Below are positions 38,867 through 62,900 of a stretch of 64,000 nt of DNA, in pieces. The notes below the pieces were generated by a model that worked only from the letters and a program-made list of their open reading frames with translations, was not told where the DNA came from and did not search any database. Position 1 is the first letter of the stretch, and each line of letters begins with the position of its first letter. The stretch is from Polytrichum commune (lineage: Eukaryota; Streptophyta; Polytrichopsida; Polytrichales; Polytrichaceae). The position numbers were made by a program, and so were the translations under genes. Location of the stretch: the NCBI GenBank assembly GCA_950295325.1, contig OX485808.1:3784501-3848500 (forward strand), read 5' to 3'.

Positions 38867-39003
38867 CAGAGAAGGCGCCAGGTGTCCCAAATATTCAGAA
38901 ATCTCGGAGATTTTGACACGCGGCGTGCAATGATCACCAGCACACTCTCACAGTCAATCTCCACCTCCGATCCGTTATCGAACCCAAACTCTCCCTCGGG
39001 GCC

Positions 39004-39009
39004 TATATA
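39004..39009 (+). promoter_or_regulatory. TATA box
   Basis: TATATA within GGGCCTATATACCTCGG, in a locally G+C-rich promoter. Transcription would start near 39035-39040, leaving a leader of about 580 nt before the coding ATG at 39621. Confidence 0.55.
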
Positions 39010-39039
39010 CCTCGGTGCTCAATTCAGATCTGCTGCAGC

Positions 39040-39620
39040 AAAATTCCGAGCTTTGTAGAACGCAGAGGAGGTTAGTGTGAAACCCAAGCTTTGTAGAACA
39101 CAAGACAAGTTAGTGTTGTGAAGTCTGTTGCAAAGCGCCGTGGTAGATTGTACACAGGAGTTTGCAGAACTGAAACCTGGTTCAAAGAGCTCCGAGTTTG
39201 TGAGGTGACGGGAGCTGAGGAGTTCAGCAGTAGACATTCGTGTTAAATCTGAACCTTTTTTTTTTGTCAAGGTCTCTTGAATCACGGGTTGCGGAAGTTG
39301 CAAGGATTTTTGAGGTTTGTTAGTTTACAATAATCAGAGAGCTCAGTTGGGAGACTACAGAGACAGACTAGGTGACGGGCAGTGACGACGAGCGGTAATT
39401 AATAGACATTTGTGTTGAGTCTCGAATTATCAAGGTTTGTGGGCTCTCTTGGTTTATGATTCTGTGTGGCCGGGTTGATCTGGAAGCATCATTTTTCTTG
39501 CCTTTCTGGTTGAGGGGGTTCAGCTAGCCGGGGGTTAGGTTATCGAACAAGGCGAGCTTCGTGCGGGAGCTCGTCGTAGAGTTTTAGCAATTCTTTGGTG
39601 ATTGTTCGGAGATTCTTTCT
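39040..39620 (+). promoter_or_regulatory. Probable long 5' leader with a short uORF and internal duplications
   Basis: The leader contains an imperfect tandem duplication near 39047-39118 (AGCTTTGTAGAAC twice, each followed by GTTAGTG) and a second, more diverged pair (TAGACATTCGTGTT near 39233 and TAGACATTTGTGTT near 39404). An upstream ORF of 23 codons runs 39456-39527 (MILCGRVDLE start, TAG stop) and ends 93 nt before the main ATG, so it could reduce or condition translation. Confidence 0.45.
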
Positions 39621-40268
39621 ATGGCTTCAGTAGGTGCTGTGTCCGCCGTTTCATCGTCTCAGACAACCCGGTGTTTCTCCGGGCCCATTGCGAGGGATTC
39701 CTTCGGAAACTCCGAAGATAGATTACATTCCTCGTTGGAGTGTTCGAGCCAGCCTTGCTTCCAGGGCAGATCGTTGAGCGTGACACGTAGGCCGACCCAG
39801 GGCGCAGCTCCTCGCTCGCCCTCAGCGCTCGCTGCAAGGGCAGCTTCGTCGTCCTCTTTCACAGCGAATGAGAATCAAGACGACGTTGCGGAGTGGACTA
39901 ACGGAGACGACGATAAGGAGAACATTCTGGACAGTTCCAGTGAGTTTCTGGAGACTATCAACGCAGTGGTGGCCGATGTGGTGGACGGGCAGAAGTACCT
40001 GAAGGAGACCGGACGGACGAAGCCCAGGCCAATGAAGCGACGTTCGTTGGTTGTCTGTTTGGCTCTCGGTGTGGTGCGTCCCTACGTGAGTGATGTGGAA
40101 CAGAGACTGACGAACTTGAGACGCACTTCGTCGAATACCTTCGCTAAGACTTGTGCTCTCGTTTCACAACTTTCGTTCGGTGCTTCGAAAGCAGGCAGAT
40201 ACATAGCTGAGCAACGAGAACTTGAAGAGGCTGAGGCTAAAAACAACTTGATACCGGCCATGGCCTAA
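39621..40268 (+). CDS. Hypothetical protein, possible plastid transit peptide
   Basis: A 215-residue single-exon frame starting TCTATGGCT, a favourable plant initiation context. Residues 1-80 are rich in Ser, Ala and Arg (MASVGAVSAVSSSQTTRCFS start), like a chloroplast transit peptide. Residues 83-105 are acidic and contain a KEN tripeptide (99-101). Residues 137-153 are basic then hydrophobic (RPMKRRSLVVCLALGVV). The C-terminus (about 155-208) is probably helical, ending in Glu/Ala-rich sequence. The codon composition is clearly different from the A+T-rich surroundings, and a G-box, TATA box and leader precede it, so I regard it as the best protein gene in the window. I do not recognise the family. 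KEN could be a cell-cycle degron or chance. Confidence 0.7.
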   Translation: MASVGAVSAVSSSQTTRCFSGPIARDSFGNSEDRLHSSLECSSQPCFQGRSLSVTRRPTQGAAPRSPSALAARAASSSSFTANENQDDVAEWTNGDDDKENILDSSSEFLETINAVVADVVDGQKYLKETGRTKPRPMKRRSLVVCLALGVVRPYVSDVEQRLTNLRRTSSNTFAKTCALVSQLSFGASKAGRYIAEQRELEEAEAKNNLIPAMA

Positions 40269-40278
40269 AAATGTCCGA

Positions 40279-41363
40279 ACTCATGTACAGATTTTAAATT
40301 AGCAACTAAAGGCCAAACGGTCGAATTATTACCTGTTCAAACGATTCAAGCATTCATATGTACATATGGTGTTCTCCAAGCGGTCGTCCCATGCCGCAGC
40401 CCACCGTCTTTAGGGTTTTAGCATGGGTAATTTTTTAACAGCAGAGTAGGAGAATTCTACTCTGATTAGATTCGTCGAGTGTACAAAACTAGTGCAATAC
40501 TGTGCCGATTGTAAGAGATTGGCAGCAGAGGTATGTAGATGTTGCATATGTGGGTGGCAATTGCCCAAATGGGCTTGCCGAAATCTGGGCCACATTCTCC
40601 TGTATCATATGTCCTGTGTCACATATTCTGTGTCCAGGCAATTCAAGCGCACGTATTGCGCATCACTGATCTATTTTTTACTCCATCAAGGCTTCCATTT
40701 GTTACATTATTCAGTTTTTATGCTTCTTGCAAACTGTGAGTGTTTGCCTTATCGTTTTGATGTAATTTCTGCCGAATAGCAACTTCGTTACAGTGCTGCA
40801 GTTGGAATTGAAGCTTGCTGGTGTCTATGTTGATTCATGTACAGATTTTTCATCAGCAAACCAAGGCCAAACGGTCAGATTATTGTCTGGTCAAACAATT
40901 CATTTCTATGTACATATGATGTTCTCCGAGTGACCTTCCCATGTTGAAGCTCACCGTCTCATAGGATTTCAGGAAGGGGGAATTCTGTAACAATTCTACA
41001 CCGATTGCAATTGTCGAGTGTGCAGAATTAGCTCACTACTGTGTTCAGTGTAAGAGATTGGCAGCAAAGATATGTGGATGTTGCATATCTGGGTGGCAAT
41101 TGCCCAAACGGGCTTGGCGCATCTGGCCTCACTCTCCTGTATTGTATATCCTGTGTCGTATATTTTGTGTCCAGGTAATTCAAGTGCATATATTGCTTTG
41201 TAAATCTATCTTTTGCTCCACCAGCTTTCCACTTGTTACGTTGTTCAGTTTCTACATTCTTGCAAACTGTGTGTTGTTCTTGTCGCTGTGATATGACTCT
41301 GCCGAGTAGCAAAGTCATTGTAGTGATGCATTAATAACTGAAGCTTGCTAGTGATTATGGTGT
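40279..41363 (+). repeat. Tandem duplication downstream of the gene
   Basis: Unit A (about 40279-40830) and unit B (about 40833-41363) are co-linear and roughly 80% identical, sharing GGCCAAACGGTC, TAAGAGATTGGCAGCA, GGGTGGCAATTGCCCAAA and GAAGCTTGCT in order. Unit A starts about 10 bp after the stop codon of the 215-residue gene, so the duplication covers its 3' UTR or immediate downstream region. Cys-rich open frames in the two units diverge in register and are not conserved as protein. Confidence 0.85.
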
Positions 41364-42781
41364 TAAAATAGGGACTAGATACGTGTGCAATGGTGATCAA
41401 TTGAATGCAACCCCAAAGCAGGTATGTACCATTGTTTGCATTTGCAAATCGCACATCAAAGTAATTAAATTACTTTCGTGTTTTCTTAACTTAAAATCAA
41501 TTTGGATGAGAACACCTATGGCAGCATATGCTCCAGGATCGATGGTGAGGGTGAAAAATTCAGATCCTCGTGAAGGCCAGCTTTCACCTGGCTTTCTCTC
41601 CAATTCCTTCTGATGTGAATGACTTTGCTAAAATGTTATGGAGATGATTTGACGCAGTTTTGATGATCAGTTTATGGTATTTTTGTGGGCGTAGATTTGA
41701 TTGAAAGTACATACAACACAGTTTTTAAGCCACTCCAAAGACTCATGCCCCAATTACACCAATGTTTCCGCCCGGTTCCAGCCGTGAAATTGCTGGGGAT
41801 TATGTTTACAAATAGATACTGGCCAACTACTTTTCACACTATTACAGCCAAGGATGCCGACAGATGGTGCTGGAACTAGCTGGTGTGATAAGCCCCTTCG
41901 GGCTTTGTGGCCTCTACACTAATATGTGCAATTAAGTTGCCTTAATGAACATGTTGCACTTTTACCCAACCAAATAACAACCATGGAAAAACATGATTCT
42001 TGTATTTTGTCGTTGTCATTGGTAATAAAATATTCAAAATGTGTGGAATGTTGATATATTAGCGTGGGGTAACTTGATTGCACATAACAATAAGTTAACT
42101 CATCGATTGTGGATGAAGAGGCTCTAGTAAAAACAAGCCCCCAATAGATTGAGGACCAATCCATTCCAATTGGATCCGACTACACTAATTCATGGATGTG
42201 GCTTAACTACAAAAAACTTTGCCTTGAATGATGATGCATATGTATGTGGAAGATAGTAGCGATAGATGTAAGAGCACATTAGCTCACATGACACCATGCA
42301 TGTTCTTGTCTGGTTTGACAAGTGAGTGTAACGTAACTCAAGCTAGATGAGGCTAATTCGGTTAGCTTCCTTAACCGGACACCTATTTTTGGCTCCTAAT
42401 GGGGGGTAAAGTTGCTTTAATTCAATGGGTGAGCAATACATGGTGATTTTGCCACCACCTTGACGATATTTGGGTTAGTCACCTTAGCAAAAGTCAAACC
42501 ATCTTCTATAATGAGGAGTGCTATCCACTGAACTATGACATGCTTGGATTTTGTGCCCAAGGTGGGCATATTAGGAGGTGGCTTGTGGTTGTGAGGTGCT
42601 AAACAACTTCGATAGTGGGTATTTTATAATGAAAAACAATTCGGCAACATTTTATCTTACATGTGACCACTTTAGAGACATAACACAACCAATATTGGCA
42701 TTAAACTTGGTTTTCATTGGCAAATGATCCATGTAAGATATGCTAATGATGTTGTCCACTACACAACATTGAATGATAAAA
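41364..42781. other. Intergenic, no gene recognised
   Basis: Only short open frames on both strands, none with domains. No repeat boundaries seen before the hAT element. Confidence 0.45.
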
Positions 42782-42789
42782 AGGGTTCC

Positions 42790-43349
42790 CACGGGTAGGT
42801 CACTCTAAGGCATTTTTGTGCACCACGTGCGGCTGGGGTTTTTTTTTGTTTTGGGGCTATTTACCTTCAAGGGCCGAATTAAAGCCTCCCTATAATTACT
42901 TAAATTTCAAAAATGGCCCATTTGTTTGCACCCTTCCATTACTTATATTGTCCAAGTCACTGTAATTTTTTGTACTCTATATTCCTTTTAAGTAATAAAA
43001 GCTAATCTACTTCCTAACGCATTGACGAGTGTTAAGGGAAACCATGGAAACAAAGAAGGGTGCAAATAGTAATATCATTGCAAACAAAGTTATGAAGACA
43101 ACACATAGGAGACCATAGCAAACATACTAAACATACCTTCTAGGATCCTTATCTTTAGCCCCTATATTAATTTTACAAAAAATAATGGCCCACATTTTAT
43201 GTCACTAACTTACTTATAATGGGATTGTCTACATTTAATGGCCCCTTCATTACTTGGAATTCCTTTATAATTTTTATTTCAAATGATTTTAATCCTTTCT
43301 ATATTATGCCGCACGTCGTTTTTAAAATGCACTAAGTGACCTACCCGTG
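42790..43349 (+). mobile_element. Non-autonomous hAT-type element, copy 1
   Basis: A 560-bp element with perfect 15-bp termini CACGGGTAGGTCACT, flanked by a perfect 8-bp target duplication AGGGTTCC (42782-42789 and 43350-43357). An 8-bp duplication and CA-initial terminal repeats are typical of hAT transposons. It has no transposase. Subterminal regions match the second copy at 57712-58802 in inverted orientation (GTGCACCACGTGCGGC, CCCTATAATTACTTAA, AATGTGGGCCATTATTTTT on one strand or the other). Confidence 0.92.
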
Positions 43350-43724
43350 AGGGTTCCCCCCTATAACACCACATTAGAACATTGAATCATTAATTCTGGA
43401 GCCTAGATCAACACCTTCCTCAACTCAAATTTTAGCAATTTCAAATTCTTTGGTCTTGATCCATGATTGCCAACCTATTCAAACTTCCAATGCTTGAATC
43501 CATTAGCTAGATTACTCCACAAAGCTAGAGGTGTCCAAATTAGCCTCATCTACCTTATGTATAGACAAACTTGGGTCTTGGACATCAATAACTCAATACA
43601 TGCACAATTTTAAGAGTTGCAATGTTGTGGATGATTCCACATCTATAAGTTAACAACTAATTCTGGAATAAAATCCACTATCCTATACTACTACTTTGAC
43701 CCCTACTTTTATTTGGTTCTCCCA

Positions 43725-43811
43725 AGAGAGCGGTGTCTTAAACCCCAAGGCCTAAGGCTAGAATGCTACTTGGATGGATGACCTTCTTGATAATTGTTTT
43801 TGATACACCCT
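43725..43811 (+). mobile_element. 5S rRNA-derived fossil (Cassandra-type TRIM or 5S SINE)
   Basis: The segment GGCTAGAATGCTACTTGGAT and the following GGATGACCTTCTTGAT, ending near ATACACCCT, aligns along its length with the 3' half of plant 5S rRNA (GGCGAGAGTAGTACTAGGAT, GGGTGACCTCCTGG, TTGCACCC). The 5' half is less similar. Cassandra TRIM elements carry such a 5S sequence in their LTRs, and 5S-derived SINEs also exist; flanking LTR ends were not delimited. It is degraded and old. Confidence 0.5.
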
Positions 43812-44580
43812 ATCACCTATGGTCCACCAATCATAGTGGGGGCATTTGGGTGAACTAGATATTGCAACAAGCTTGCAAAGCTTGAATTACAAAACTCTTT
43901 GGAAAACCACGAGGAAGAGAATCTATTGTGGCATGAACTGCCCCACCATAGAGCCAAAAGAAAAATGGCCATTTTCATGGAAACCCTCCTCATGCAAAGT
44001 GCTCACCCTTATGCCTTTTTTCTAACTTGAGAGGAGTTGGTACTACACTAAATATACAAATTAGTGAGGGTGATACTAATTCAAGTCATTCCCATAATCT
44101 AGCTAAATCTCAAAGTTATCGAGGGCTAAAATTGCTACTGAGTGGCACTAAAGTCATGACTATAGTAAATTCTATGCTCATTTACCATAGATTTCAAGAA
44201 CATTAATGCATTCTTGTGATTAGTGCACTCCACATGCTTGTTAGTGAATAGTGCCAAGTGCCAATACATTTAGTGATTAGGGCCAAGTGCCAACACTTTA
44301 GTGAATAGTGCAAAGTACCAGTACTTTCATGCCAAGTGCCAATACTTTCTTGCCTCGGGGGGTTCACTCCCTCTTATATTCGAGGAGGAGGCTTATAGCC
44401 TCTTCCCAAAATGCCGCCCTCTGGGCCGGCCACGTCACCTCAATCTTTGTTTAGCCCTAACCCTAGCTCTCTTCCCGCCTTCTCTTTGGTGGTTTCTCTT
44501 TCGAACCTCTTGTCCATGCACGCTTCTTTTTTTGAACCTCCTCCTCTCTGGATCGCTTCTCTCACTCTACGAACTTGTGA
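43812..44580. other. Intergenic with a short repeat end
   Basis: CTACACTAAATATACAAATT at 44043 resembles the left end of the CTACAC repeat family. Near 44215-44340 the words AGTGCCAAGTGCCAA and related CCAAGTGCCAATAC recur several times. Overlapping forward open frames at 44301-44608 compete for the same bases. Confidence 0.4.
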
Positions 44581-44931
44581 TCTGTTAGCGTCCCAAGACG
44601 TGGTGTAGATTTTTTGCAATCAAGGAGAGTGAGTTGTAGCGATGTGGAGTACTCACTGCCGGTGACGATCGGAAGCCGCTTCAGCGATGCTGCAATTGGG
44701 AAGCCTATCCAGTACTGAAACTTGCAGCAGGCGGATGTGGAAGAGCTCGAAGCGGAGGTGGAAATCCTTCGAAGGAATCTAACCACGAAGACAGCGAACG
44801 CAAGAGGAAAAGAAATTTATAAGCAGATCCTTGAACTTTTGAAGATTTTTGAACCCTTCATTGTGGTGAATTATGCCCTAGAATCGGCTAATCATCGAGG
44901 AATTCCAATGTGGTTTAGGTTGGAGACTTAG
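44581..44931 (+). pseudogene. Exon-like relic with coiled-coil coding
   Basis: One forward frame is open for 116 codons except for a single TGA at 44716-44718 (TGG would fit). After it the translation is strongly coiled-coil-like (QQADVEELEAEVEILRRNL) followed by YKQILELLKIFEPFIVVNYA. Codon usage and G+C content differ from the neighbourhood. No ATG with good context begins it and no family is recognised; the minus strand is also open for 75 codons, so coding is not certain. Confidence 0.35.
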
Positions 44932-47125
44932 AAAAAGAGACAGTCTCGTGAGCAAATCTTTCAATTTTGCCATGAAAGAAATCTCTTTGAATTGAAGAAC
45001 TTGTGATGACGTTTCTTGAACCCTCGTTATGCTAAATTTTCCCAAGAGCGGGCATTGGATTCTTAAGCATGTGTAGTAGGTCACTTTCTATTCCAACTTC
45101 AAGAATGAAATTAAGAGTCAAGGTCACCGGTTACATGCATTGTCAAGTGGCATTAAGCTCTCATTAGTTGTTGATACCTCATTGTTACCTATCTGTCTTT
45201 GGACATTGGACAAAACTCTCAACTACCAAGATTCAACTCAATGAACTTGCCAGAAAGAAATCTATGAACTGAGTGTATCCATCTCTAGGGTGAACACTCA
45301 CTAAACCACCTGGAGTACGTCTTGGTGTAGTCTCGGTGTATAGCGAAGGTTTCTTTTCAAGTTTTCTGCGATCTGTGGAATGAATGCCGTTAAAAATGTC
45401 GGTGGATTTTTGTAAACTTTCAAAAGGTGTGCAAGGTTTGAATAATCAAACAACTGGCGCCGAGCTTGAAAAAGTGAGATGTTGATCTTTCTTGAGATCA
45501 AATGGGGATACATGCTCAAAGGTCTCTTGCTTTAGTTGCAGGAATGACTTTGATGGCTTACATGAATGGAGTCTGGGCTCTTGTCGTGTTGCGAGAACTC
45601 TGTCATGTGATGGTATGTCGCAATAATACTAATGCAAGAAGGCTAACAAGAAATGATTAAGAGGTGTCTCGACGTCCTGATGCAAGTGTTCATCGCAAGC
45701 AGATGTTTAACGGCTTCGGTGCTTTACGTTGAATGAGCGGAGCCTTTTCATACAGTTTTGGTCGGCAGATGAAGGAGGTGGTGTTTCTTCAGCAACTACA
45801 GTACCTTCATTCACGTAAATCACATTGTCGTAGAAATTGTTTTTAGCAGACATCTTCGTAAACAACACCAAAAATGGACACTGAGTCTAGTAAGTCAGTA
45901 AAGAAGAGCAGAAATTTTGAAAATTGTACATGATATGGTTGATATTCCTAGGTCTTGGAGATGCAAGTGGTTTTACCTGTCTTTTGAACGAGAGTTCATT
46001 TCTTTAGTCCACTTAGGATTGGAACTAGACGTCAGAATTTTCATGCAGTCCTGCGCCATTTGTATAAATATCCTTCACCATGGATCCAGAAACAAATTTA
46101 TGATTGGAACCCCTGCTTTTGAGGAAAGAGAATGAAAGCAAATAGGGACTGATGTAATTTAGAAAGGGGGGAATTGATAGAAAATAGCGACTATTTTTTC
46201 TCTTTAGAAAATCCTCCTAGTAGCTCTTAACCTGTGAAGAATTTCAAGATGACTTGGAAGAGGTAAAGAATCTCGCTGCTTGAATTTAAGTGTCAAATCT
46301 TTCCTTCCTTATCTGCATGAAAAAATTGGAAACCTAACATGGTCTTTTCGCTTCAAGCTAGAGTCTATGCCACTGTGCTAATCACTGTTTTACAATCGAA
46401 GTTGTTCTGTGTTTATTGTCCTCCATTTTTCTTTTGTATGCTGTGTCCTGATAGCTTGACAAGGAAATCTTTGTGACTTTGTTATCAAGTCCGTTCGAAG
46501 TTGATGTGAAGTTTTCAAAGACTTGAACAGACTGAGATATATGCAAACATGGTTGAAACAATTGCAGTTAAACTATCAGATGCCCAACGTCTCCAAACTT
46601 CACCCGTTTAGGATTTTGCGGCTTGTGCTCATTTTTTTGGTTTTATCTACTCTTATGTAGGGCTATTTGTCGTATAATCGGGGGTTATGTGAAGAATGTT
46701 ATACATTGTGTTTCTAAACAAATGCAGTAAAGAGTATTGAATTTCATGTTTGTATTTGCAAATTAGATTATTTTCATGTTGATAATGGAGCATTTGTGTT
46801 TTGTTTGGACCATTCCTTGATAACTCAATCTTAATTTTACATTCAAATTGTTATAAACATATTTGTCTTTGATTGTTGGATTTTCCTTTCTTCATTCACT
46901 TTAGTTTGTTATAATAGATTTAAGGGCTGAAAAAATGCTCCCCTTCACAATTTATAAGTAATTAAATGAACCCTTAAAACACCATCAATTAGATAACTAG
47001 GTAATTGAATGGTCCATTTATTTAGTCTGGGCCATCAAAATACTCCCTATAATAATACCCTTCAGTCACACGTGATATACAACCCTCTCCAAGGAGTCAC
47101 CCCTCTCCCTTGTGATATTATTAAT
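44932..47125. other. Intergenic, no gene recognised
   Basis: Moderate composition with scattered short frames (for example 45917-46135) but no domain. 46915-47080 shows words reminiscent of the hAT ends (CCCTATAATAATAC, CACACGTG) but no matching boundaries. Confidence 0.4.
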
Positions 47126-47352
47126 AAGGCTCATTAATAGCCTTGCTCACACTATTAGTGGTAGTATGGCTTTGACATTAATTAGCTCCCACTAGTTGAA
47201 TCGCCAACAATCCTTATGGTTAAGGCTCATTAATAGCCTTGCTCACACTACTAGTGGTATTATGGCTTTGACACTAGTTAGCTCCCATTAGTTGGATTGC
47301 CAGGAACTCTTATGGCTAAGGCTCCTTAATATCCTTGTTCACACTACTAGGG
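47126..47352. repeat. 96-bp tandem repeat
   Basis: Units begin with AAGGCTCATTAATAGCCTTG at 47126 and 47222 and with a variant at 47318, an exact 96-bp period, 2.4 copies. Each unit contains ATGGCTTTGAC and TTAGCTCCCA. Each unit start is itself a small palindrome (AAGGCT...AGCCTT). Confidence 0.9.
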
Positions 47353-48879
47353 CGTTACAAATGTTTTCAATCAACCATGTAGAAACGTAGAGGCTTGCCC
47401 TTGAGATAGATAGGTGCTTGTGGGCTTGTCCATGCCCATTCAAGGTGAGGCACCTCCAAAGAGAGGCATTAGTCATCAGCGGGGGACCCTCTAATTCTAC
47501 ATAATGCTAGTTTGGAATTACATACAAACTTAGACCAACTCAAAAATGAGGCAACACTTTAAGTCACGCTAGTGGCAACATCGGAGTTGTCTTTCAATCT
47601 TTCTCTTTCTTAGTCCCAAGAGCATTACAAGTGATGTTTCTCTATCGAAAACAAAATCAAAGGAAATTGCTATCAACGAGACATTTATGTATGTACAAAT
47701 CTCTGAAGAAGCTGCATACAGTAAGATTTTTTCTGTTGTATTTATTGAAGCAATGTTACCATTGGCCTCAATGCAGGACCTTTTCATTTGTTCATGAACA
47801 CTGAGGTGTGAGGTGAACAAACAAACAAAGATAATCCACTCAATGCTGCTTTTAGAGTGCAGCAGAAATCAGCAAACAATGCACTTCAATCTCTTGGTTA
47901 TACACACCAAGGAAACAAATACCAATCTAAGTTTTTGACAGTCGGTAGGAGCACAAATCAACCCAAATTTCATCCTTACAGCTTAGAGTAACTTGCATTG
48001 GAGATTGTATCTAGTGTTATAACTAATAAATTTACATATGATACAAGTACATTACTTGAATTATTGGATGCAGTACGGAACACACATTTCACCAATTTCC
48101 AAATCATCCCAAAATTGTGTGCAATAGTCTTCCCTCTCGAACTCCAACTCAACATCAGAAGAGTTAGATTACTTTGGCTGGTTAGTTTCAAATTACTGCT
48201 TTGAAGTGAGGAAGCAACAATTGAATTGCAAACCACGCAGTACAACTTTTGACGTGGGGGATTATTTTGTCCTGCCTTTCAGTCTAGCTTCCAATCGCAA
48301 CCAACTTCTCATCCGCCATTTGAGATTTCAAAGTGGAAAGAATGGGGAACTCTAAGTGACACACTGATCGTATTATAGAATGAAAAATATGCTCAGAATT
48401 CTTAAAAGCGATCCCGTGCATTTATATATTACATACATGCCGATAGGTACCCTGCACCGTTATTTGCATTGAATTTTGCCACCTATAACGGGCTTATAAC
48501 TTGTATTCACATCTCTACTGCGCTCAATCTGAAATTGCTACATTATCTTACAATCAACTGCCGATGTTATATCTAATTTCCAGATGAAGAACATCGGTTC
48601 AAATCCTTCACTGCACTCGGGATGATTCACTTGCAATCACAGCAATCCTCCGAACTCGGAATCGGCCTCAAGTGACCGTCGGTTCACCAAATGCTCCAGG
48701 TAGGTTAAATGTCCATCGAAATCAAAATCTTCGTACTTTCAATGCTAGTACTAGGTGGGAGCAATGGAAAAGAGTATTTCCATCCTCGATTTACTGAGCT
48801 CGCCTGCTCAACATTGTACTCTCGGTTGCAGGTAGATTGTTGGGTGATTTCTGTATGTTCCGTCGCACCTTTCATTCGC
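47353..48879. other. Intergenic, downstream side of the first microprotein gene
   Basis: No domain recognised. From about 48,560 to 48,880 G+C content rises; this probably holds the 3' UTR and flank of the minus-strand gene at 48880-49080. Confidence 0.4.
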
Positions 48880-49080
48880 CTACTCAACGTCGAGGAAGAT
48901 GTCGAGGAACGCCACCTCGTGGTCATTAAGCCGATATTGAGGGAGGATTCCGAAATCTTGTTCTTGTTCTTGTTCTTCCTCAAAGTCAAAAACTAAGAGG
49001 CCGAGGTACGCTACCTCGAGGTAATTCAACCGGTACTGAGGGAGGATTCTCAGCTCCTCCATCGACTCCGTTGAGCCCAT
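48880..49080 (-). CDS. Microprotein A with doubled ILPQYR motif
   Basis: A 66-residue frame starting MGSTESMEELRILPQYR and ending in FLDVE. It contains two copies of one motif 33 residues apart: ILPQYRLNYLEVAYLGLLV and ILPQYRLNDHEVAFLDIFL, separated by an acidic Glu/Gln linker. A homologous 65-residue gene with the same layout and the same C-terminal FLDVE lies at 56121-56318. In the last 23 codons the two genes differ at five synonymous codons and at mostly conservative amino-acid positions, with no stop or frame change, which points to selection on protein. An in-frame ATG at 49176 would add 32 residues (MATSAESQVRS start); I prefer 49080 because only that part aligns with the sister gene. 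The family and function are unknown to me; F-box-like or protein-interaction roles would be guesses. Confidence 0.6.
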   Translation of the reverse strand: MGSTESMEELRILPQYRLNYLEVAYLGLLVFDFEEEQEQEQDFGILPQYRLNDHEVAFLDIFLDVE

Positions 49081-49604
49081 AGCCGCGAAGAAATAATCAG
49101 AAAACCTCACTCTCCTTCTGCAGATTTCGGCGAAACTGTGTAGAGATCGAACTTGAGATTCTGCTGATGTTGCCAAGCCCTTGGAATGTAAGCCAGCCGA
49201 TCGAGTAGTTCATAGTCAAGCTAGCTAGTTCTGAGGTGCGAGTGACTGAAGCAGGAGTTGCATTTGTAGTAGCTAGATGGCCAAGGTATATTTTGATTAA
49301 ACCAAAAGAATGCTTCAGAGATCTCCTCAGCAACCTGAGTGGAAAGAGAGAATCGTTCATTCCCTCTGCTTACCGATTATTGCATGGTCAATTCAAAGTG
49401 AAGCAGTCTACATATCAATCGAGATGATGAGTTCCTGCAATCCGTCAACGCGCCGAAAACGAACGAATTACAACACGGACGTTTGGGATTCAAAAGTCGA
49501 CTCCAAGGATCTGACGTGAGCATCCGTAGCCGACTCTGCTACGTGACATAAGCTGTATAAGTGCAGTCTTCATACGTAGTAATAATAGTACACAAAACCA
49601 TACT
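49081..49604. promoter_or_regulatory. Upstream region of microprotein A
   Basis: Moderate G+C content. It holds an alternative in-frame ATG (49176) and overlapping minus-strand frames that I treat as leader sequence. No clear TATA box seen. Confidence 0.3.
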
Positions 49605-49800
49605 CCACCGTATTATTCCATTTACCTGAATTCATTGTCTTTATATAAAGCTTTGTGCCTCCTCCTATATTCAGAAAACCACACTCCACCGTATTATTCT
49701 TTTTCTTTTCTTTTTCTTTTTGAGACAGAAGGCCAACCCCTCCACCGTATTATTCCATTTATTCTTTATACAAAGCTTTGTGCCTCCTCGGATATTCCTG
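49605..49800. repeat. Imperfect tandem duplication
   Basis: ACTCCACCGTATTATTCCAT at about 49609 and CTCCACCGTATTATTCCATT at about 49740 are each followed by TATA.AAAGCTTTGTGCCTCC and then ATATTC, with a CT-rich tract between. A third partial start lies at 49684. Confidence 0.75.
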
Positions 49801-50269
49801 TATGAGTACGGATATGTGCGGATTGCTGAAGCATAAATGGCACCGACCACCGGCAGCATGGTTATATATTACACTACCATTGATCCTTTATGTCATGGGG
49901 CCCTACTGTTTTCATGTCAAACCACCCCTACCCTCCTTGTAGTGATTTTTACATTTTATTTTACATTTTACATTTTATTTACTTTTATTTAATTTTTTAC
50001 ATTTTTACATCTTATTTTATGCAAGTTTGTTGAACTAACTCTAGTCTTTACTGGACGATTACCGAAAAAATCACTGAATGGGATATTAACATTCATCAAG
50101 AGCATCTCAAAGAATCCAACATATCGGACATGTCGCTAATCATATTAGAGTTGTTGATGTTAGAATGGGAACTGTCCGAACCCACCTTGCTTCTTGATCT
50201 CAAATGTTGGGCAAGATAGTAATGTATGTACACATGTCTTAAGCTTACATGATTACTTTTATTTTACTA
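49801..50269. other. Intergenic, no gene recognised
   Basis: Contains an A+T-rich low-complexity stretch of TTTTACATTTTATTT words at 49950-50010. Confidence 0.5.
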
Positions 50270-50655
50270 GCCCACGTCTCGTAGGATATAAAACACACAA
50301 CTAATACGAGATGATTAGCAAATCCAAATCAAGGTTGCAGCCACTTTCCTTATTATTGCTAGAGCTCATATGAATGTCTTATCCATGTCAAAGTGAAGAT
50401 TCTCGTATGGGGATTATATGTTTACAGTGTTGCAATTACTGTCACTTAGCAAGTGGTTTTTCATCTGAATTCCAATCATCCATACACTACTTCATCACAA
50501 GTTGCCGACAAGAGAAGGTAGGGTTTTGCCCAATGGATAAACTCATCCATCATCCATGACAAAATTTGTTCACTTATTCATAAGAAGTGTTGTTTGAAAA
50601 GTCACCATAGTGACATAAAATATCATATGACACTGATTAAACATATTTAGTGTAG
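50270..50655. repeat. Composite of two repeat families
   Basis: 50270-50400 contains, in reverse complement, the spacer words of the inverted-repeat elements at 11727-12390 and 36660-37501 (AGCTCATATGAATGTCTTAT). 50405-50655 is a truncated copy of the CTACAC family, about 80% identical to 6960-7218 and ending in GTGTAG. Confidence 0.65.
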
Positions 50656-52615
50656 TTACAGATCAAATCTCAAAACCAAAACTCTAGAAAATGAATCAAA
50701 CCATATTTTGGAATTTTTTAAAAAAAAAAAACATGTTATAAAGGGCATAACAAGGGCAACTTTGGACTATGATCACTACATTGTTAGTATAATATGTCTT
50801 TGAAATTAATCGCGTTGAGGGATTAGTTTATATACAATACATGTATTCAATGAGCTTTTCAAATAGAAGCATTTTTACCCTTGTTAGCAATACGTTTACC
50901 ATGTCATCTTTAACATGTAGCGATGAAAATTGCATTCAAAATTTGGTTGTTTTACAATTCTTATGCAATAAGAATTTTGTATTATTGAGATTTATTTTTA
51001 TTTTTATTTTTTTTGGTTGCAACACATAAGTAAATGTAAATTCCATGTCTTCATACTTCCATTAGAACTTAATTTCATTAAATGAATTTATATAAGACTC
51101 ATAATTCAAGAGATCTACAATAATTTATGGAAGAGATTTTTTGTATAATTAAAATCTATAATAAATTGGATACAAATAGAGAGTGCCATACTATTCTATG
51201 TACTAAGTAGAAGTTATCAACTTTATGTTAGTTACTTTAGTCCTCATTTCTCACAATTTAATTTTCATCATCTAAAAAAAAAATTGATTGTGAAGCATGG
51301 TATTTGTCCATTGTTTCTTCAACTTAAATATTCGTATAAAAATTTTCTTCAGTATGAATATGCTTTCACACTGCAATGTATGCTTTGACCAACCTTATTT
51401 TTCAATCCCCATAAGAGGTTAATATATTTTCACTTGAATGGAGCTTCAAACACTCTCGAATGCATGATTGTCTAGCTTTTCTCCACGCATCCTACTTTTT
51501 CTTATTAAATGCCTATTTTAGTACCTTGATTTTGGAAGTCTGCTTGGATTTAACAATGAGGTCAAAAAATGCTTGCATGTTCCACACCCCAATCTTCAAG
51601 TTATTCTTTAAGTTGTGATTTAATGATTATAGTAAGAAGAGGTTTTCAAGAGTAATTTTATCATTAAGTGCCCTCTTAGGTTCCACTTCTTCTCTGTAGT
51701 TTTAACCAATGATGTCCATATTGTTACTCGTATTTTTGCTTCCACCTCAAATAATCTTCAAGAACAAGTGCGTTCATCTTCTAATGGTCTTATTTATTTA
51801 GACCATCATTTCTTGTTGATGGATGACCATTTTATTGTGACGAATCCAATGGTCATGTTTCTTCTTCGTGTGTTGCCTACACAACTCTAAATCATGCCAT
51901 GGCCCAAGTATCTAGTAGATTTTGTACGTCAACAGAGAGCAACAATTGTGTGCTTAATCATTTGAAAAATACTCTTTCGATTGACATATATTTTAGTGAG
52001 TTCATGATGGAGGTATCAGAAAAACCGGTACTTCTTTCAAAGAAAATCACCAAACCTATTGCTCTAGAATCTTACTGATTCATGTAGGGGTGCAAAAAAC
52101 TACCCTATTGAAGTGCTAGAGGTTGGATCTCAAAACTTGTTGAAGCGGTGTTACTATTGGTTATATCCAGTTTGAGACCTAGTTTGAGTTCATGAATCGG
52201 ACCACTTATAGTGATTGCTTGTGTAGAGTTCCACATTTGCATTGTCCCTCATGAATACCTGTAGAACTTGACATTCATTTGAGACTCTAATACACCACAA
52301 CGCTAACTTTGTAGATATTGCAACCCTAATTTTACGTAAACATCAAGAACTATACTCATATAATAGATAGAGGTAGAATTTGATGTTAAAATTGATGCTA
52401 AAATTAAATGTTAAAATCAATATGCAATACATGTCATAATATTATTCAGCCATGTGGGTCAGTTCCATGACCCTAGAATATGTCAATTATATTCCATAAG
52501 TCCCTCGACCTAACCGGGCATACTTTTTATTATTATTCATACATTCAAGTTGAACTTGGAAATTTGGGTGTGGAGTTATAGACGTCTCGGCACTATGCGC
52601 AAGAATTACTATTCG
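50656..52615. other. Intergenic, no gene recognised
   Basis: A+T-rich with long T-runs and one 62-codon chance frame. Nothing recognised up to the minisatellite. Confidence 0.45.
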
Positions 52616-52739
52616 TACCAGTAATATTCACAAGGAACACTATTCATACTAGTAATATTCACAAGGAACATTATTCATACCAGTAATATTCACAAGGAAC
52701 ACTATTTATACCGGTAATATTCACAAGGAACACTATTCA
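52616..52739. repeat. 31-bp minisatellite
   Basis: Four units with an exact 31-bp period start at 52616, 52647, 52678 and 52709; each reads TACCAGTAATATTCACAAGG followed by AACACTATTCA with a few changes. Looser relatives (ACTATTCATAGCAACACTAT, CACTATTCACAATATTC) follow to about 52850. Confidence 0.95.
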
Positions 52740-52959
52740 TCCCAATATTATTCCATGGAAGTACTATTCATAGCAACACTATCATTGAAAATACTAGCAC
52801 TATTCACAATATTCTCACTAATCAATCCGGCATTATTCATTATTTGTACCGGCGTCAGTTTCTTCCTATTCTTTAAGTTCCTTCCCAAAAAGGATCAGGT
52901 AGTGGAAGCCCATGTCATATGCTAAATATAGAATGGAACACAACTATGCAATTGAATAA

Positions 52960-53175
52960 TGTTATGGCAGCAGCAGCCAGACCTGACAAAAGCGGGAAGA
53001 AAGCGGAGTTCGTAGTGAAGAAAAAGAAGAGAGTAGAGAGGGAGATTGACATAAGTTGAGTGTCCTGGTTGTCCTGCCCAAGCCAGGGAAATTAAAGTCT
53101 CCATGAATCACTGTGCAGCAATCTATGCTTTCGGACGCGTTTCCCAATTGTCGCAGCAATTCGGTATAAGTGAAC
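52960..53175 (-). pseudogene. Possible LINE endonuclease fragment
   Basis: The minus strand reads YTELLRQLGNASESIDCCTV and then IHGDFNFPGLG. The GDFN core (codons at 53091-53102) after a hydrophobic strand is a hallmark of AP-endonuclease domains of non-LTR retrotransposons. Only this short piece is recognisable; no reverse transcriptase follows, and the motif alone could be chance. Confidence 0.35.
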
Positions 53176-53636
53176 TACCGATGGGGAGAGGAATCTCAAG
53201 TGGCCAAGTGGAGCTCCTCCCCGGGTTTGAGGACCAGTTTGCACACTGAAACACTCCTTTGAAAGCTACTTTAGTATTCAATGTCCACTTCCAAGGAATC
53301 CCATCATTGAACAGTTACAGTCAGTGATGCCACATTCCAATCCTATCCGAAGTGGCAGGCATCGGTCCGAACTCGCACGTGCTTCGATGCACATACTTGG
53401 ACTGGACAGTCACTCGGACTCCATGCCTTGCAGGATTAACGTTGTTGGAGGTATTGTTAGTGATTAGGTCAGCTCATGTTCAGACGCTCTCCACAGTTTT
53501 TCCCTCACAGCTTGCAAGCGTTAAGAGATACAGCACCCGGCCATATTCACTCCACTGTGCATGAGAGATATTAAAGAGTACTGCAAAGATGACAGATATG
53601 CCCCAGATCCTTCAGTCCTGTGAAAAAATTCTTGTT
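53176..53636. other. Flank, no gene recognised
   Basis: One 70-codon forward frame (53352-53564) without a domain. The local composition is less A+T-rich, as in the rest of 53-56 kb. Confidence 0.4.
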
Positions 53637-53965
53637 AAGCCTAACAAAACAACCAGTTGATCATTTATTCAAGTGAGGAACTGGAACTTTTGTAGGATAT
53701 GAACTTGTCTTACATTAAGTTCGGAAAGGAACCTCGTGTCTTATCGATAGGGTAATCTGCACCCAACTTGGCAGTTGTGGAAGTCGTCGAAAGGAAAAAT
53801 CCTTCAAAGCCTAACAAAACAGCCAGTTAATCATTTATTCAAGTTAGAAGTTATATGTGATACGAACTTAAAATCTTACACGAGATTCGAAAAGGAACCT
53901 CATTTCTGATCGATAAGCTAATCTGTACCCAACTTGGCAGTTCTGGAAGTCTTTGAAGCTCCCCC
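53637..53965. repeat. 170-bp tandem duplication, diverged
   Basis: Units start with AAGCCTAACAAAACAACCAG at 53637 and AAGCCTAACAAAACAGCCAG at 53807. Both continue with TCATTTATTCAAGT, GGAACCTC, ATCGATA and ACCCAACTTGGCAGTT. Identity is roughly 80%. Confidence 0.85.
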
Positions 53966-54129
53966 ACTCACAGCGTACAGTTTGACAGTTGCTCCAGAAC
54001 CAAAGGGAACCACATTACTTCTCGAGTTATGGCCAGTTCATCGAGGTGGAAATTGGAGCTCGACGGTCTTAGAATTCACTCTTAGTACTACTATTTGACA
54101 TTGTGCGACAACGTGGTAACTAATCTACG

Positions 54130-54438
54130 TCAGGATTTTCTGATACGCGTCCTGAGGAATTCGAACAACCAACCAACCTGCCATTGCTGAAGCTTTTGAA
54201 AGCTGTTAGGCAACTTGGTGATGATCACAATACCGAGGTTTATGCAACCGGGGAGGGAGACAGGTCCAACGATACTTCCTTGTCCGCCAAATGAGTTGAA
54301 TCGACGTTTACTAACTTGCAAGTAATTGCTATCGATCGCGTGGGGCAAGATCGATGCACAAGTAGCAAAAACAGTGACGATGAAAGCTATAATGACTACA
54401 AAATGCACTGGACAAAAACAACTTTTTCTGTCGTACAT
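54130..54438 (-). CDS. Possible small secreted or membrane protein
   Basis: A 102-codon frame starting MYDRKSCFCP, with a single strongly hydrophobic segment (residues 12-30, FVVIIAFIVTVFATCASI) that would serve as signal peptide or anchor. A dibasic site (KRR, 44-46) is followed by a Gly/Ser-rich stretch (FNSFGGQGSIVGPVSLPG). This layout resembles plant peptide-hormone precursors or short secreted proteins, but no family motif is present. A potential splice donor (CTCG|GTATTG) lies about residue 69, so the last third may be intron. The frame sits between two tandem duplications. Coding is uncertain. Confidence 0.35.
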   Translation of the reverse strand: MYDRKSCFCPVHFVVIIAFIVTVFATCASILPHAIDSNYLQVSKRRFNSFGGQGSIVGPVSLPGCINLGIVIITKLPNSFQKLQQWQVGWLFEFLRTRIRKS

Positions 54439-54539
54439 TACATTAGGCGCAATCTGGCAAATCTAACCACGTTCAGGTTGCAGTTCCGCGGGATTCCATA
54501 GGTCTGCCGTCACCTTCTTTCTTTCTTTTTCTTTCGTAC

Positions 54540-54965
54540 CAGAATGTCCCGTAGCCGCAGCAGATGGATTTGTTCTAAATGGGCTGTTACTTGCAGTTTG
54601 CCGCAAGGTCGACCACAACATTCTGGGAGAATTTTTGAGAGGTCGATAAGTGCAGCTACGACTTCAATATTCTAATGCATGTCATCTTGACTAACCCCTT
54701 GCATCCGAAATCCCACAACTCCGATTCGGTGTTCTTTTCGGGAAAATGCGTGCAGAATGTCCCATAGCCGCAGCAAATGGAGTTGTTCTGAATGGGCTGT
54801 TACTTGCAGTTTGCCGCAAGGTCGACCACAACATTCTGGGAGAATTTTTGAGAGGTCGATAAGTGCAGCTACGAATTCAATTTTCTAATGCATGTCATCT
54901 TGACTAACCCCTTGCATCCGAAATCCCACAACTCCGATTCGGTGTTCTTTTCGGGGAAAAGCGTG
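54540..54965. repeat. 213-bp recent tandem duplication
   Basis: Two adjacent units, 54540-54752 and 54753-54965, begin CAGAATGTCCC and share long identical runs (TGCCGCAAGGTCGACCACAA, CATCTTGACTAACCCCTTGC). Only about ten differences are visible, so the duplication is young compared with the other repeats here. Confidence 0.95.
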
Positions 54966-55759
54966 CATTGCAGCAAGAACGTGAGTGTTTTGAGCAGCAG
55001 GGAGCCAGCCAGAAGAGGTAGAGGGTGCTGCAGATATCGATTTGGATAATAAGAGAGAACACCGTCATGCTGCATGCACTCTACGCCAACACTTTTCAGC
55101 CAAGACATAAGAAGTAGAAAACGTTCAAATGTAATTTTGGTACTGATGTTCCTGTAAGATGAATAGGTTGTGGTGTCTGGTATTGTTGATGATCAAGTAA
55201 CCAATGTAGCTAGGAATCACTGTACGTCCTCGCCAGACTTCCGAGCTTTATAGATTCAGAAACTCTAGCAACAATAACGCCAACCATAAAGTACTAGCAC
55301 ACTTACCAAAGAACCTCTCACCTTGTCGCACCCGCGGATTCAAAAGCAGGGCTCATGAATTGTCCCGGCACTCGGACAATCATGTATCCCCGGCCCACAC
55401 TAATTCTCTAGATTTCTCACTTACAACCAAACACCAAATGATATCCATTTAACCGTATTCACATTATTCCAGAAATCTTCCAGAAACTTTCGCAGTATAT
55501 ACACTCAGCAAGGAAATTTGCTCTTCAACAAGAGCATTGCCATCTAGCTATTTGCTGCCGGCTACTACTTGTGTACTAACGCATCACAGAACCAATCTGA
55601 AACAAACGGATGATTGTTCTTGTATTCTACACCGAATGATTTGTATCTACTATAGTATCCCGCTGGAGATTAACATCGTTTCCTTGGCTGCCACTGCAGC
55701 ACTGTAAGTTGTCTCCTGCACCACCACCTGCTTCCGAGGCTCCAATCTTAAAGAGCACC
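54966..55759. other. Intergenic, no gene recognised
   Basis: Composition remains moderate. No protein domain or repeat found. It precedes the hairpin. Confidence 0.4.
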
Positions 55760-55847
55760 AAGCTTTCTTGATGGTGATGCACTTGTAGTCGCAGAAGTCA
55801 TCGGTACTCATCCCGTGACTACAAATGCATCACCATCAAGGAAGTTT
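55760..55847. ncRNA. microRNA-precursor-like hairpin
   Basis: Arms 55760-55792 and 55815-55847 are reverse complements over 33 positions with three G-U wobbles (plus-strand sense) and one mismatch; the central run CTTGATGGTGATGCA pairs perfectly with TGCATCACCATCAAG. The loop is 22 nt. Length, near-perfect pairing and small loop fit a plant microRNA foldback. It lies about 270 bp downstream of microprotein gene B (minus strand), so it could sit in that gene's 3' UTR or be a separate transcript. The mature strand is unknown; I do not recognise the sequence as a known miRNA. Confidence 0.5.
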
Positions 55848-56120
55848 GACGCGCGTCAAAGAAGTTGATCCGGAACAAACTCGCTCGCAATCATCGGTCT
55901 CGATTTCTCTCGCCCTGGGTCATCATGTGAAAGTAGAAGACCATTCCATTGAAGTGAAAAATGCAATGTACATTTAAATGCTTCCATTACCACTCCCCCT
56001 CCTCCTCCTCTGTTGCACCATTACCCTCGCCATGGCCAACAATCACAGGTTGATTGCTCGGATGAATTGTTCTGCGTGGCATTCCGAGTGGTATAAAATG
56101 GAAGCTCTAAATCTCCCCTC
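55848..56120. other. Probable 3' flank of microprotein B
   Basis: A short stretch with a TCCTCCTCCTC-rich run, no other feature. On the minus strand it would be the 3' UTR of the gene at 56121-56318. Confidence 0.35.
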
Positions 56121-56318
56121 CTACTCAACATCAAGGAAGACTCCGAGGTAGGCAACCTCACGGTCCTGAAACCGGAACTGAGGGAGGATCCTCATCTCCC
56201 GATCCTCGTGATGATGCTGCTCCTCCAACACCTGAAGGAAGAGACCGAGGTGAGCCACCTCCCGATGAGTGAACTGGTACTCGGGTAGGATTCCCATCAC
56301 CTCCAACTCCATGACCAA
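56121..56318 (-). CDS. Microprotein B with doubled ILP..R motif
   Basis: A 65-residue frame starting MVMELEVMGILPEYQF and ending YLGVFLDVE. Two motif copies 34 residues apart, ILPEYQFTHREVAHLGLFL and ILPQFRFQDREVAYLGVFL, are separated by a His/Glu-rich linker (EEQHHHEDRE). The layout, length and final FLDVE match microprotein A at 48880-49080, about 7 kb away on the same strand. The pattern I-L-P-x-[YF]-[RQ]-[LF]-x4-E-V-A-x-L occurs in all four copies. Conservation of the motif between genes and between the two halves of each gene argues for an old internal duplication followed by gene duplication. No known domain recognised. The ATG is in the right place for the alignment but no TATA box was identified. 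Confidence 0.62.
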   Translation of the reverse strand: MVMELEVMGILPEYQFTHREVAHLGLFLQVLEEQHHHEDREMRILPQFRFQDREVAYLGVFLDVE

Positions 56319-57711
56319 GATGAATCAAACAGAAACTTACAGAAAACTAAGAGACTCTTCAAGTGCACATCCCAAACACCACACTCCAGCCACATGTGGA
56401 GATCAAAACTGCAAACATGCACCAACAAGAGCCCAAGAGACCATCAATATGAGCTTCAGGAGTCCAATGATTGTAACTTAAGTAGGGGAGGCAGATCGTG
56501 TTGAGGCTACATGTAGGTGATCTCGCAGGAAGAATTTTGTACACGGACAGGGTGACGACACAATTGGCCCCGTGAGGTTCATTACTTCAGTCTGTCATCT
56601 AGAAACATGGTATCTAGAAACATGTTATCTAGTCATTTCAGTTTTAATGATTAAAAAAACATGGGTAGATGGTATCACTGGTGATAGTTCGACATCTACA
56701 CCAATCCTAGATATTTGGAGGTCTCCAGACAGTCAGGACGAGGGTGCAGTAGTCCAGTCTAGTCTACAGGGTCCCAGAATCATTTGTTTATCTGTGTGGG
56801 GTCAAGTGAACAAGAGTCCACATCCAGATGGGGTAGAAATTAGAAGATCCCTCACGCGTTCAGACTCGAGTAGGCAAGAAAATATATATCACAAGTACTA
56901 GGTGGTGGAAAGGTGCTGGCGTCATCCCACCAGGAGGTCTACAGCAGCTTTGATGAACCAATGATACTTATTACTCATGAAGGCCTGCTCTAGGTTTAAG
57001 TTCATGTGGCCCTATATTATTGTACGACTCCGCCCTTTCCCACTCTGTGGACAAACTCCGGCTGTTGTCTCATCAGGTTAACTTAGCAATTGCAAATCGT
57101 GCAGATTGTCGCTTCAAGTGTTGAGTTTGAAGTTCAGATGCAAAAGTTACGAGGATGCTCGTGCTCCCTACGTATCATGTGGGTCGTCCTTTTTCAAACA
57201 ACGCGGTAACCAATTTGCATGGTATAGTCACCGCATCCTATTATCTAGTAGTGTGTCCACACTAAAACTTGGCATAACACTCAAACGTTTCGCTTTCATG
57301 GGCCAAGGCTTGTGTTAAGAGGCGTGAAATTGGTACAGGCCCTTTGGTCTCATTCACACGGATGTCGGTACATATTGGGTACAAGAATTTTGGGGCAGAG
57401 GGTGGGGGGGTCTTTTGCAATAGAGGTTTGACATGAGTTGCACAATTTTATTCATTTGAATCCTAGTTGTTGTAGTGGTCCTTGGGCCCTATTCAAGTTG
57501 GTTTTCTTGTTGTTAGGTTTATGTTTAGTGCGTCATGATGCATTGATAGGGCATCTCCTTCTACATTAAAAAAAAAAAAACATACTATAGCCATAAAAGA
57601 GTGCAATTTTGAAATGGATTCCTCTTGAGTATAAATAAGGAGATGCTATCGGAGTAAGATGTTACCATGTGTAATTACCTCATGTGAATCCATATTCATC
57701 AATGCTTATCA
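56319..57711. other. Intergenic, no gene recognised
   Basis: Forward open frames at 56572-56901 (109 codons) and 57106-57318 show no domain and no codon preference that I can see; treated as chance. Confidence 0.4.
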
Positions 57712-58802
57712 CAAAGGCGGGTCACTTGGTGCATTTTACAAACGACGTGTGACATAATATTGGGAGGATTCATTTTATTTGAAATAAAATTATTAAGGAA
57801 TTTTAAGTAATGAAGGGCCCATTAAAAGTAGACAATCCCGTTACAAATAAAGTAGATAAGTATAAAATGTGGGCCATTATTTTTCAGTATAACTAATATA
57901 GGGGTTGCAGTTTAGGATCCTAGGGTTTATGTTAAGTATTATTTGTTTGTAAGCATGTACTATGCCAACTAGTGCCAATAGAAATGGAGATGCTACTAAT
58001 GTTTTGTATGGAGCAGAAGAGAGTTCGTGATTAGGAGGGTGCATGCCATGAAGTGGCATGACGGCCATACATTTGAGGTACTAAGGCAGTTGGTTGACCT
58101 CTTGGCATGAGTCAAAGAATTTGAGAGGCGAAATCCTCACAATCCCTATATTGAAGTAATGATGCAAAATTACATAAAACATTTGGGCCATAACAAATTC
58201 AAATATGATTACACCGATAGCACATGGATGGATGTGGATTGCATCGTTCTACTATGACCATGAGCTACAATGCTACCAATGAAGTATATACACTAGATAG
58301 AATTGATACATAGAAGCTGGAAAAGTTTTGTGACCGAGAGAAATGTATAGGGTTCATGTACGAGATTTGGGCTTGTGCACAAACTTCTACGGAGCAAGTG
58401 TTGTGCTTTTTTAGCACAAAATTGTTTTTTAAGGTGAGCACACTTGAACTTTTGTAATGCACAAAATCATATTTTAGTTGTTGATATGGTTGTGTATGAT
58501 ATGCAAGTGTGATGTGGCTATGTTTTGTTTGAAGTCCCTTTGAAGTTCATGACTTCATGAATTGTTTCTGTGACGGCATGTATGGACATGGGTTATTAAT
58601 AAGTACTTATAAGGAATATAAACTAAGATATATTATTGACATGGGAAATATAAGTAATAATAAGGTACAAAAAAAATTTATTTTAGAGAATTAAGTAATT
58701 ATAGGGAACCTTTAATTCATGTCTTGGAAATAAATAGCCCTTAAAAAAATACCCCTCCGCCACACATGGTGCACAAAATTCCTATAAAGTGACCCACCCA
58801 TG
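57712..58802 (-). mobile_element. Non-autonomous hAT-type element, copy 2
   Basis: A 1,091-bp element with ends CAAAGGCGGGTCACTT and (reverse-complemented) CATGGGTGGGTCACTT, flanked by a perfect 8-bp duplication GCTTATCA (57704-57711 and 58803-58810). The outer ~200 bp on each side match copy 1 (42790-43349) in inverted orientation. The longer interior has only short frames, so it is non-autonomous or decayed. Confidence 0.92.
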
Positions 58803-62339: not shown

Positions 62340-62900
62340 CACATGATGGACACGTCAAGGTCCAATGCATTCTCCATCTCCAATCCAACACCATGACCTA
62401 CCATCTGAGTTAAACCTATTTATCTTTGTTTCATCAATGAAAATCATGCATTTCCAACCATTCATGGTCCAATTCTCATACCTTTGAGCAAACCTCAAGT
62501 GTGCGAGAACATGTTTACGACTTAGAAACGGCTTCCTTTGTAGCACTTGTGCACCCAATCCAACCTCTCTTAAATCATGCCTCACAATGATGTCAAACAA
62601 CAATTTACTTATTTTAGATCAAAGTTGTTTTGATGTCACAAATGCAGTTCCAAGTCGACCTTCAATAACAAGAGTGGCACAACGCCTCTTCTCTCGGTCT
62701 GCAAAAAGCTTTGGACACCCTCCTCTTTGTCTTTCAATCTCGCCCCATGCATCCTTCCTCAAATACGCTACAAAAGATTGGCTCATGCCCACTAAAGTGG
62801 CAACTTTGTGAGTAGAAACATTGATTCTAGGTTGCACCAAAGTTTGATGCTTCTATTCTTGAGACAGCAGAGGGATATGGCTACAAATGATTCTACAAAT
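62340..62900 (-). pseudogene. Tc1 transposase fragment
   Basis: Minus-strand frames read the helix-turn-helix part (KVATLVGMSQSFVAYLRKD) and then the start of the DDE domain (MIFIDETKINRFNSDGRSWC), closely matching the first element's NETKINRFCSDGRSWCW. Here the first catalytic Asp (I-D-E-T-K) is still present, unlike the copy at 4441-5491. At least one frame change lies near 62605 between the helix-turn-helix part and the catalytic part; a TGA follows the WCWIGDGECIGP block, and homology ends soon after. It belongs to a related but distinct subfamily. Confidence 0.8.

Follow-up and report, generated by a model that had tools for sequence, protein, structure and literature searches.

What kind of gene is represented by two short, related open reading frames (ORFs) on the minus strand of a moss contig: a free-standing microprotein gene, the leader of a larger gene, the remnant of a transposon, or part of some other kind of transcript? 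The two frames, which we call A and B, lie in a stretch of 64,000 nucleotides (nt) from Polytrichum commune (assembly GCA_950295325.1, contig OX485808.1, positions 3,784,501-3,848,500 of the forward strand; GC content 38.4%). This stretch is hereafter the window, and all positions are given within it. A and B are homologous, and weak similarity between them continues past their stop codons into a region that, downstream of B, holds a predicted hairpin resembling a microRNA precursor. These features lead us to consider, tentatively, that the ORFs belong to a gene of the primary-microRNA type.

Two homologous ORFs with a doubled motif

Both minus-strand frames lie at the coordinates given by a first-pass annotation of this DNA, and both proteins have the common layout that it described, with four motif copies in all and a terminal FLDVE in each:

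48880..49080, minus strand: ORF A, 66 amino acids (aa) from ATG 49080, with a second ATG at 49062; two motif copies; C-terminal FLDVE
56121..56318, minus strand: ORF B, 63 aa from ATG 56312 (65 aa from TTG 56318); two motif copies; C-terminal FLDVE

Two details needed correction. The length of 65 residues reported for protein B stands for the TTG start and not for the first ATG, and the spacing of four residues given for the motif fits none of the four copies, the actual spacing being three. In its corrected form, ILPx[YF][RQ][LF]x3EVAxL, the motif fits all four copies, two in A and two in B. An in-frame TGA at 56327-56325 lies upstream of ORF B, separated from ATG 56312 by four codons, and the start context of ORF A, GCGGCTATGGGC, is a good one for plants by the usual rules. 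Both proteins are acidic (pI 4.05 for A and 4.90 for B) and contain neither cysteine nor lysine. The hydrophobic moments of the EVAxL segments are low (0.09-0.26 at 100 degrees) and leave an amphipathic helix unsupported.

The proteins align with 47.5% identity over 61 columns, where 29 of the 60 residue pairs are the same, and a tblastn search of the window relates them at E 7e-15; their DNA is 68% identical, with 57 differences over 180 aligned bases. No third copy was found in the 64 kb, the next tblastn matches in the window having E values of 8.4 (query A) and 0.88 (query B). The codon alignment comprises 60 codons; residues 1-6 of A and the first two residues of B from its ATG fall outside it, and one B codon stands opposite a gap. 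Of these 60 sense codons 17 are identical, 31 differ nonsynonymously and 12 show synonymous changes, which always fall at the third position; this bears out the silent differences reported earlier. The proposal that the family arose by internal and gene duplication is likewise supported, A and B having the same layout. The differences between units over 57 nt point to no order of the two events (A1-A2 13, B1-B2 17, A1-B1 16, A2-B2 15, A1-B2 13, A2-B1 20).

Evidence for selection on the protein

The differences between A and B fall at codon positions 1, 2 and 3 in 15, 11 and 31 cases (binomial p 0.0009 for the third-position excess), and pairwise maximum-likelihood codon estimates of omega were 0.36, 0.346 and 0.246 under three codon-frequency models (likelihood-ratio test p 0.0044, 0.0032 and 0.0036). 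The NG86 method gave dN 0.316 and dS 0.946. The Ka/Ks near 1 that the first-pass annotation had named as a sign against its proposal was thus looked for and not found, and its claim that the protein sequence is kept holds with omega at 0.25-0.36 and p at 0.0032-0.0044. Between the internal repeats, omega was 0.13 for B1-B2 (p 0.0025) and 0.36 for A1-A2 (p 0.20, not significant).

We also simulated unconstrained copies by placing the same substitutions at random, in 5000 runs each from A and from B. The observed BLOSUM score was attained in 0.02% of the copies simulated from A and 0.52% of those from B, and a stop was gained in 75% and 86%, respectively. Among the six frames, the real one has the top BLOSUM score (153; next 112) and is the sole frame free of stops. 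Two results count against selection on the protein: residue identity does not exceed that of the simulated copies (p 0.08 for those from A and 0.16 for those from B), and an antisense frame, with stops in both copies, shows 35 identical residues of 59 as compared with 29 of 60 in the real frame. On the weight of the evidence, these comparisons suggest that purifying selection has preserved the protein.

Two other accounts of the conservation were rejected. Antisense coding was set aside, despite the identities in that one frame, as all five other frames contain stops in both copies. The other was a conserved DNA or RNA element, suggested by the near-palindrome GAGGTnnnnnACCTC in the EVAxL codons (the outer GAG and CTC are invariant in all four motif copies), but the distribution of the differences over codon positions argues against it as the main explanation.

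Searches for relatives

Neither protein matches a Pfam family at E<=1, in keeping with the earlier statement that no described family has this motif pattern; nor was there any sign that A and B are pieces of a known transposon or of some larger protein already described, the other finding that had been named as contrary to the proposal. Among PDB sequences, protein B, the one searched, had no match at E<=10. Scans that rely on short peptide patterns returned 32 pattern stretches in IMG/VR for protein B and, for a profile of A and B, 600 in IMG/VR and 353 in GTDB genome contigs, with no confirmed relative among any of them. The exact motif strings of A and B had no match in the main text of the literature searched.

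Similarity beyond the stop codons

The similarity between A and B runs past their stop codons, weakly and colinearly, over about 430 nt in A and about 620 nt in B. Both this similarity and the hairpin downstream of B had been missed in the first-pass annotation. The regions concerned are as follows:

48449..48879, minus strand: 3' flank of ORF A, with weak colinear similarity to 55503-56120
55503..56120, minus strand: 3' flank of ORF B, with weak colinear similarity to 48449-48879; holds the hairpin
55748..55859, minus strand: hairpin resembling a microRNA precursor (pre-miRNA), a predicted fold, 261 nt past the end of ORF B
48590..48700, minus strand: stretch of A colinear with the B hairpin, folding no better than shuffles

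Counted downstream of each ORF, the similarity consists of three colinear pieces: A +12 to +168 against B +39 to +176, A +173 to +284 against B +273 to +383, and A +264 to +431 against B +422 to +618. The second piece takes in most of the hairpin of B, and in A the third overlaps the second by 20 nt. Upstream of the ORFs, the similarity does not rise above background: in the most favourable comparisons, 35 of 418 segments and 48 of 300 shuffles score as well.

The background for the 3' flanks consisted of 294-700 other window segments per length, on both strands, taken from outside 47500-58500. Under both schemes that allow long gaps, none of 700 segments scored as well at 300 nt, whether from A or from B, and at 500 nt 2 of 418 did so from A and none from B. 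At 700 nt the counts were 6 or 1 of 294 (A) and 0 of 294 (B). Among single-base shuffles, 4 of 200 did as well. Taken piece by piece, the score of the first piece was attained by 2-28 of 878 other segments, that of the hairpin-containing piece by 0-3 of 876-878 (three schemes) and of a narrower piece by none of 880, and that of the third piece by none of 878 under two schemes and by 13-21 under a strict gap scheme. We read the 3' similarity as suggesting a duplicated transcript unit that comprises the ORF together with its 3' region.

A predicted hairpin downstream of ORF B

The hairpin has two 43-nt arms that are 81% complementary and separated by 26 nt, and on the minus strand 24 base pairs, including one G-U pair, follow one another without a break; by the usual criteria, these dimensions lie within the range of plant pre-miRNAs. 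Its 112-nt minus-strand fold has a minimum free energy of -55.4 kcal/mol (z -8.85). The plus-strand fold has z -10.2, and folds with more flank have z -7.6 and -8.05; in each of these four folds, none of 200 shuffles matched it. The 21-nt core of the arm occurs nowhere else in the window at up to 3 mismatches, and the exact arm pattern is absent from IMG/VR. Literature matches to 13-mers of the arms came only from three papers that, by their titles, are not on plants.

The colinear stretch of A folds differently: at 48590-48700 the fold has z -0.27, with 67 of 200 shuffles as good, and the other minus-strand fold of the A stretch has z 0.53. The sole inverted repeat of at least 18 nt at 47000-50500 has 22-nt arms that are 73% complementary and lie 141 nt apart. 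Copy A thus appears, as judged from its predicted folds, either to have lost the hairpin or never to have had one.

Targeting of ORF A or B by a small RNA from the hairpin was considered and rejected, in that none of the listed sites (score up to 6.5) for four chosen 21-nt registers falls in either ORF. For the same registers, the hairpin itself is the only place in the window with a score under 5.5.

A candidate primary-microRNA gene with a short coding ORF

MicroRNA-encoded peptides (miPEPs) are defined by an ORF that lies 5' of a hairpin on the same primary transcript, by processing of that hairpin, and by a peptide that raises transcription of its own primary microRNA (pri-miRNA); published miPEPs are said to act on their own locus or RNA. 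Together, the 3' similarity and the B hairpin shift the balance away from a free-standing microprotein gene and towards an ORF on a MIR-like primary transcript. We favour a tandemly duplicated microprotein gene of the miPEP type or of the long non-coding RNA (lncRNA) type, in which a function of the protein may have outlasted the hairpin in A, because an ORF followed by a MIR-like hairpin on the same strand is the miPEP layout, with a published precedent in mosses. In the form that we put forward, B may be a primary-microRNA gene with a miPEP-type ORF, and A and B a tandem pair of one short gene, a reading whose chances we put just short of even.

If so, A and B would be old tandem copies of a single short plant gene. 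Its minus-strand RNA would carry an ORF for a microprotein of 63-66 residues built of two ILPx[YF][RQ][LF]x3EVAxL units. In copy B, the RNA 3' of the ORF would also hold the candidate microRNA precursor hairpin, and in copy A the matching stretch would have stopped folding, or would never have folded. The RNA of B would be translated into the microprotein and its hairpin cut into a small RNA. The sequence itself shows homology, selection on the protein, a predicted hairpin and weak colinear 3' similarity; transcription, translation, Dicer processing and a function are what we infer. Because the unit is doubled, the product may have two equal contact sites and would probably be a bivalent binding peptide, with its own locus or RNA, or a protein partner, as its target.

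Several observations speak against this account. When gaps are scored strictly, the 3' flanks are equalled at 300 nt by 51 and 66 of the 700 segments, at 500 nt by 4 and 6 of 418, and at 700 nt by 10 and 17 of 294. Of 300 dinucleotide shuffles, 10, 7 and 32 did as well at 400, 600 and 1000 nt, and at 500-700 nt between 1 and 8 of 300 shuffles did so across three schemes. The piece-wise tests were run on pieces picked after the alignment had been seen. The hairpin can fold on both strands, its strand being assigned from ORF B, Rfam gave no match to it at E<=5, and it has no counterpart among the known microRNAs searched. Since A is without a hairpin, only copy B joins hairpin and ORF. Finally, an AlphaFold model made with two input sequences had a mean predicted local distance difference test (pLDDT) value of 47.4, which is low confidence; no fold was obtained and the model was not used.

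The best-surviving alternative is a free-standing, lineage-specific microprotein family in which the 3' similarity is plain homology of untranslated regions and the B hairpin an unrelated foldback or a young inverted repeat. Selection on the protein agrees with such a family, as does the presence of the hairpin in one copy only, and the window holds 12 further inverted-repeat pairs of at least 24 nt within 400 nt, of which two have arms longer than those of the hairpin; yet the 21-nt arm core is unique in the window, and the hairpin stretch is itself part of the colinear similarity between A and B. We regard this alternative as quite possible, if on balance doubtful.

Far less probable is a regulatory upstream ORF of the conserved-peptide type (CPuORF) in the leader of a larger minus-strand gene, even though its main ORF could be spliced and free of Pfam domains. 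Short conserved ORFs near the 5' end are typical of CPuORF leaders. A and B are like CPuORFs in being short ORFs that are conserved at the protein level. They differ in that we found no convincing main ORF after either copy: in the 2 kb that follow each of them, the longest open stretches on the minus strand measure 99-110 aa from stop to stop, and the six frames of 43000-56999 gave no Pfam match at E<=0.2, the two matches listed, at E 0.23, both being below cut-offs. These stretches are:

47569-47868 and 47976-48278, minus strand: longest open stretches downstream of A
54869-55192 and 54130-54462, minus strand: longest open stretches downstream of B

Least probable of all is that A and B are transposon remnants or belong, as an exon, to some known larger protein. 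Although transposase frames and other repeats lie in the window, neither protein has a Pfam match at E<=1, there are just two copies in 64 kb, an in-frame stop shortly precedes the ATG of B, and purifying selection on the protein is not expected of a dead element.

To return to the primary-microRNA gene with its miPEP-type ORF, one specific version of it, in which the microprotein is selected separately, A having lost the hairpin and kept the protein and B having kept both, seems to us unlikely. Were it to hold, the peptide would not be merely a feedback signal for its own microRNA. By our reading of the field, how far peptides encoded by pri-miRNAs are selected for their own sequence is unsettled, and a protein present in both copies with a hairpin in one would make the two outputs of such a gene genetically separable. 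In this version the microprotein family and the microRNA would both be undescribed within the literature and Rfam searches made. More generally, the sequence family would be new and the kind of gene already known. Should the link to the hairpin fail, A and B would still be new as a microprotein family, one whose clear doubled motif could be used to seek a binding partner.

Comparison with moss microproteins

One report describes moss miPEP160a as a set of conserved short proteins encoded 5' of miR160 at two loci of P. patens and also in further mosses, the P. patens protein being 122 aa long and encoded on pri-miR160 (PMC9917039). A and B are like miPEP160a in that a short protein is encoded, in B, 5' of a candidate microRNA-type hairpin, and in having paralogous copies with a common conserved block; they are unlike it in length (63-66 aa as against 122 aa), and the likeness is one of layout. 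The A/B pair is not a case of miPEP160a, because the window contains no miR160-like sequence: mature miR160 has no match in the 64 kb at up to 3 mismatches, and no Rfam microRNA family, mir-160 included, reaches its gathering score there.

A second report describes moss lncRNA-encoded peptides of 40-61 aa, with mass-spectrometry evidence and, for some, mutant phenotypes, and states that Arabidopsis miPEPs show no significant similarity among themselves (PMC11055055). A and B are like the moss peptides in size class and in being encoded on an otherwise non-coding RNA, as we would read it, and unlike them in being known from sequence alone.

Other features of the window

Rfam returned three matches in 47000-58000 at E<=5, all with E>=1 and below gathering scores, which we took as chance:

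49026-49074, plus strand, antisense to ORF A: animal mir-136, E 1.1, 22.8 bits (gathering score 64)
50497-50570: SNORD83, below gathering score
51996-52082: IS009, below gathering score

The DNA is plant-like, and its frames related to transposases or to Myb/SANT domains are the following:

4550-5629, minus strand: Tc1/mariner-type transposase frame, open over 359 aa, with DDE_3 (E 2.5e-16) and HTH_Tnp_Tc3_2
19895-20326: Myb/SANT-like frame, match below cut-off
20592-21344: Harbinger-type transposase frame, with matches to DDE_Tnp_4 and Plant_tran above cut-offs
62355-62618, minus strand: short Tc1/mariner-type frame, HTH_Tnp_Tc3_2-like, match below cut-off

A Tc1/mariner-type transposase is unusual for a plant, and its origin is worth checking.

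Between ORFs A and B lie a tandem duplication of 213 nt at 54540-54965, 96% identical, and a tandem repeat with a 31-nt period at 52563-52779, seen as five overlapping 93-nt matches. A 155-nt repeat, 83% identical, is shared by 7049-7203 and 50485-50639, and inverted repeats with ACTAAATATCATATTTAGTG-type sequence occupy 6836-7223 and 12938-13282, which suggests a family of miniature inverted-repeat transposable elements. Nested inverted repeats at 36717-37456, with arms of 147 nt (97%) and 134 nt (99%), form a large and probably young foldback. In the three plus frames of 33000-43000 there was no Pfam match at E<=1; this region includes an open frame of 215 aa at 39621-40268, likewise with no Pfam match at E<=1, the start of which resembles, in our reading, that of a chloroplast-targeted protein.

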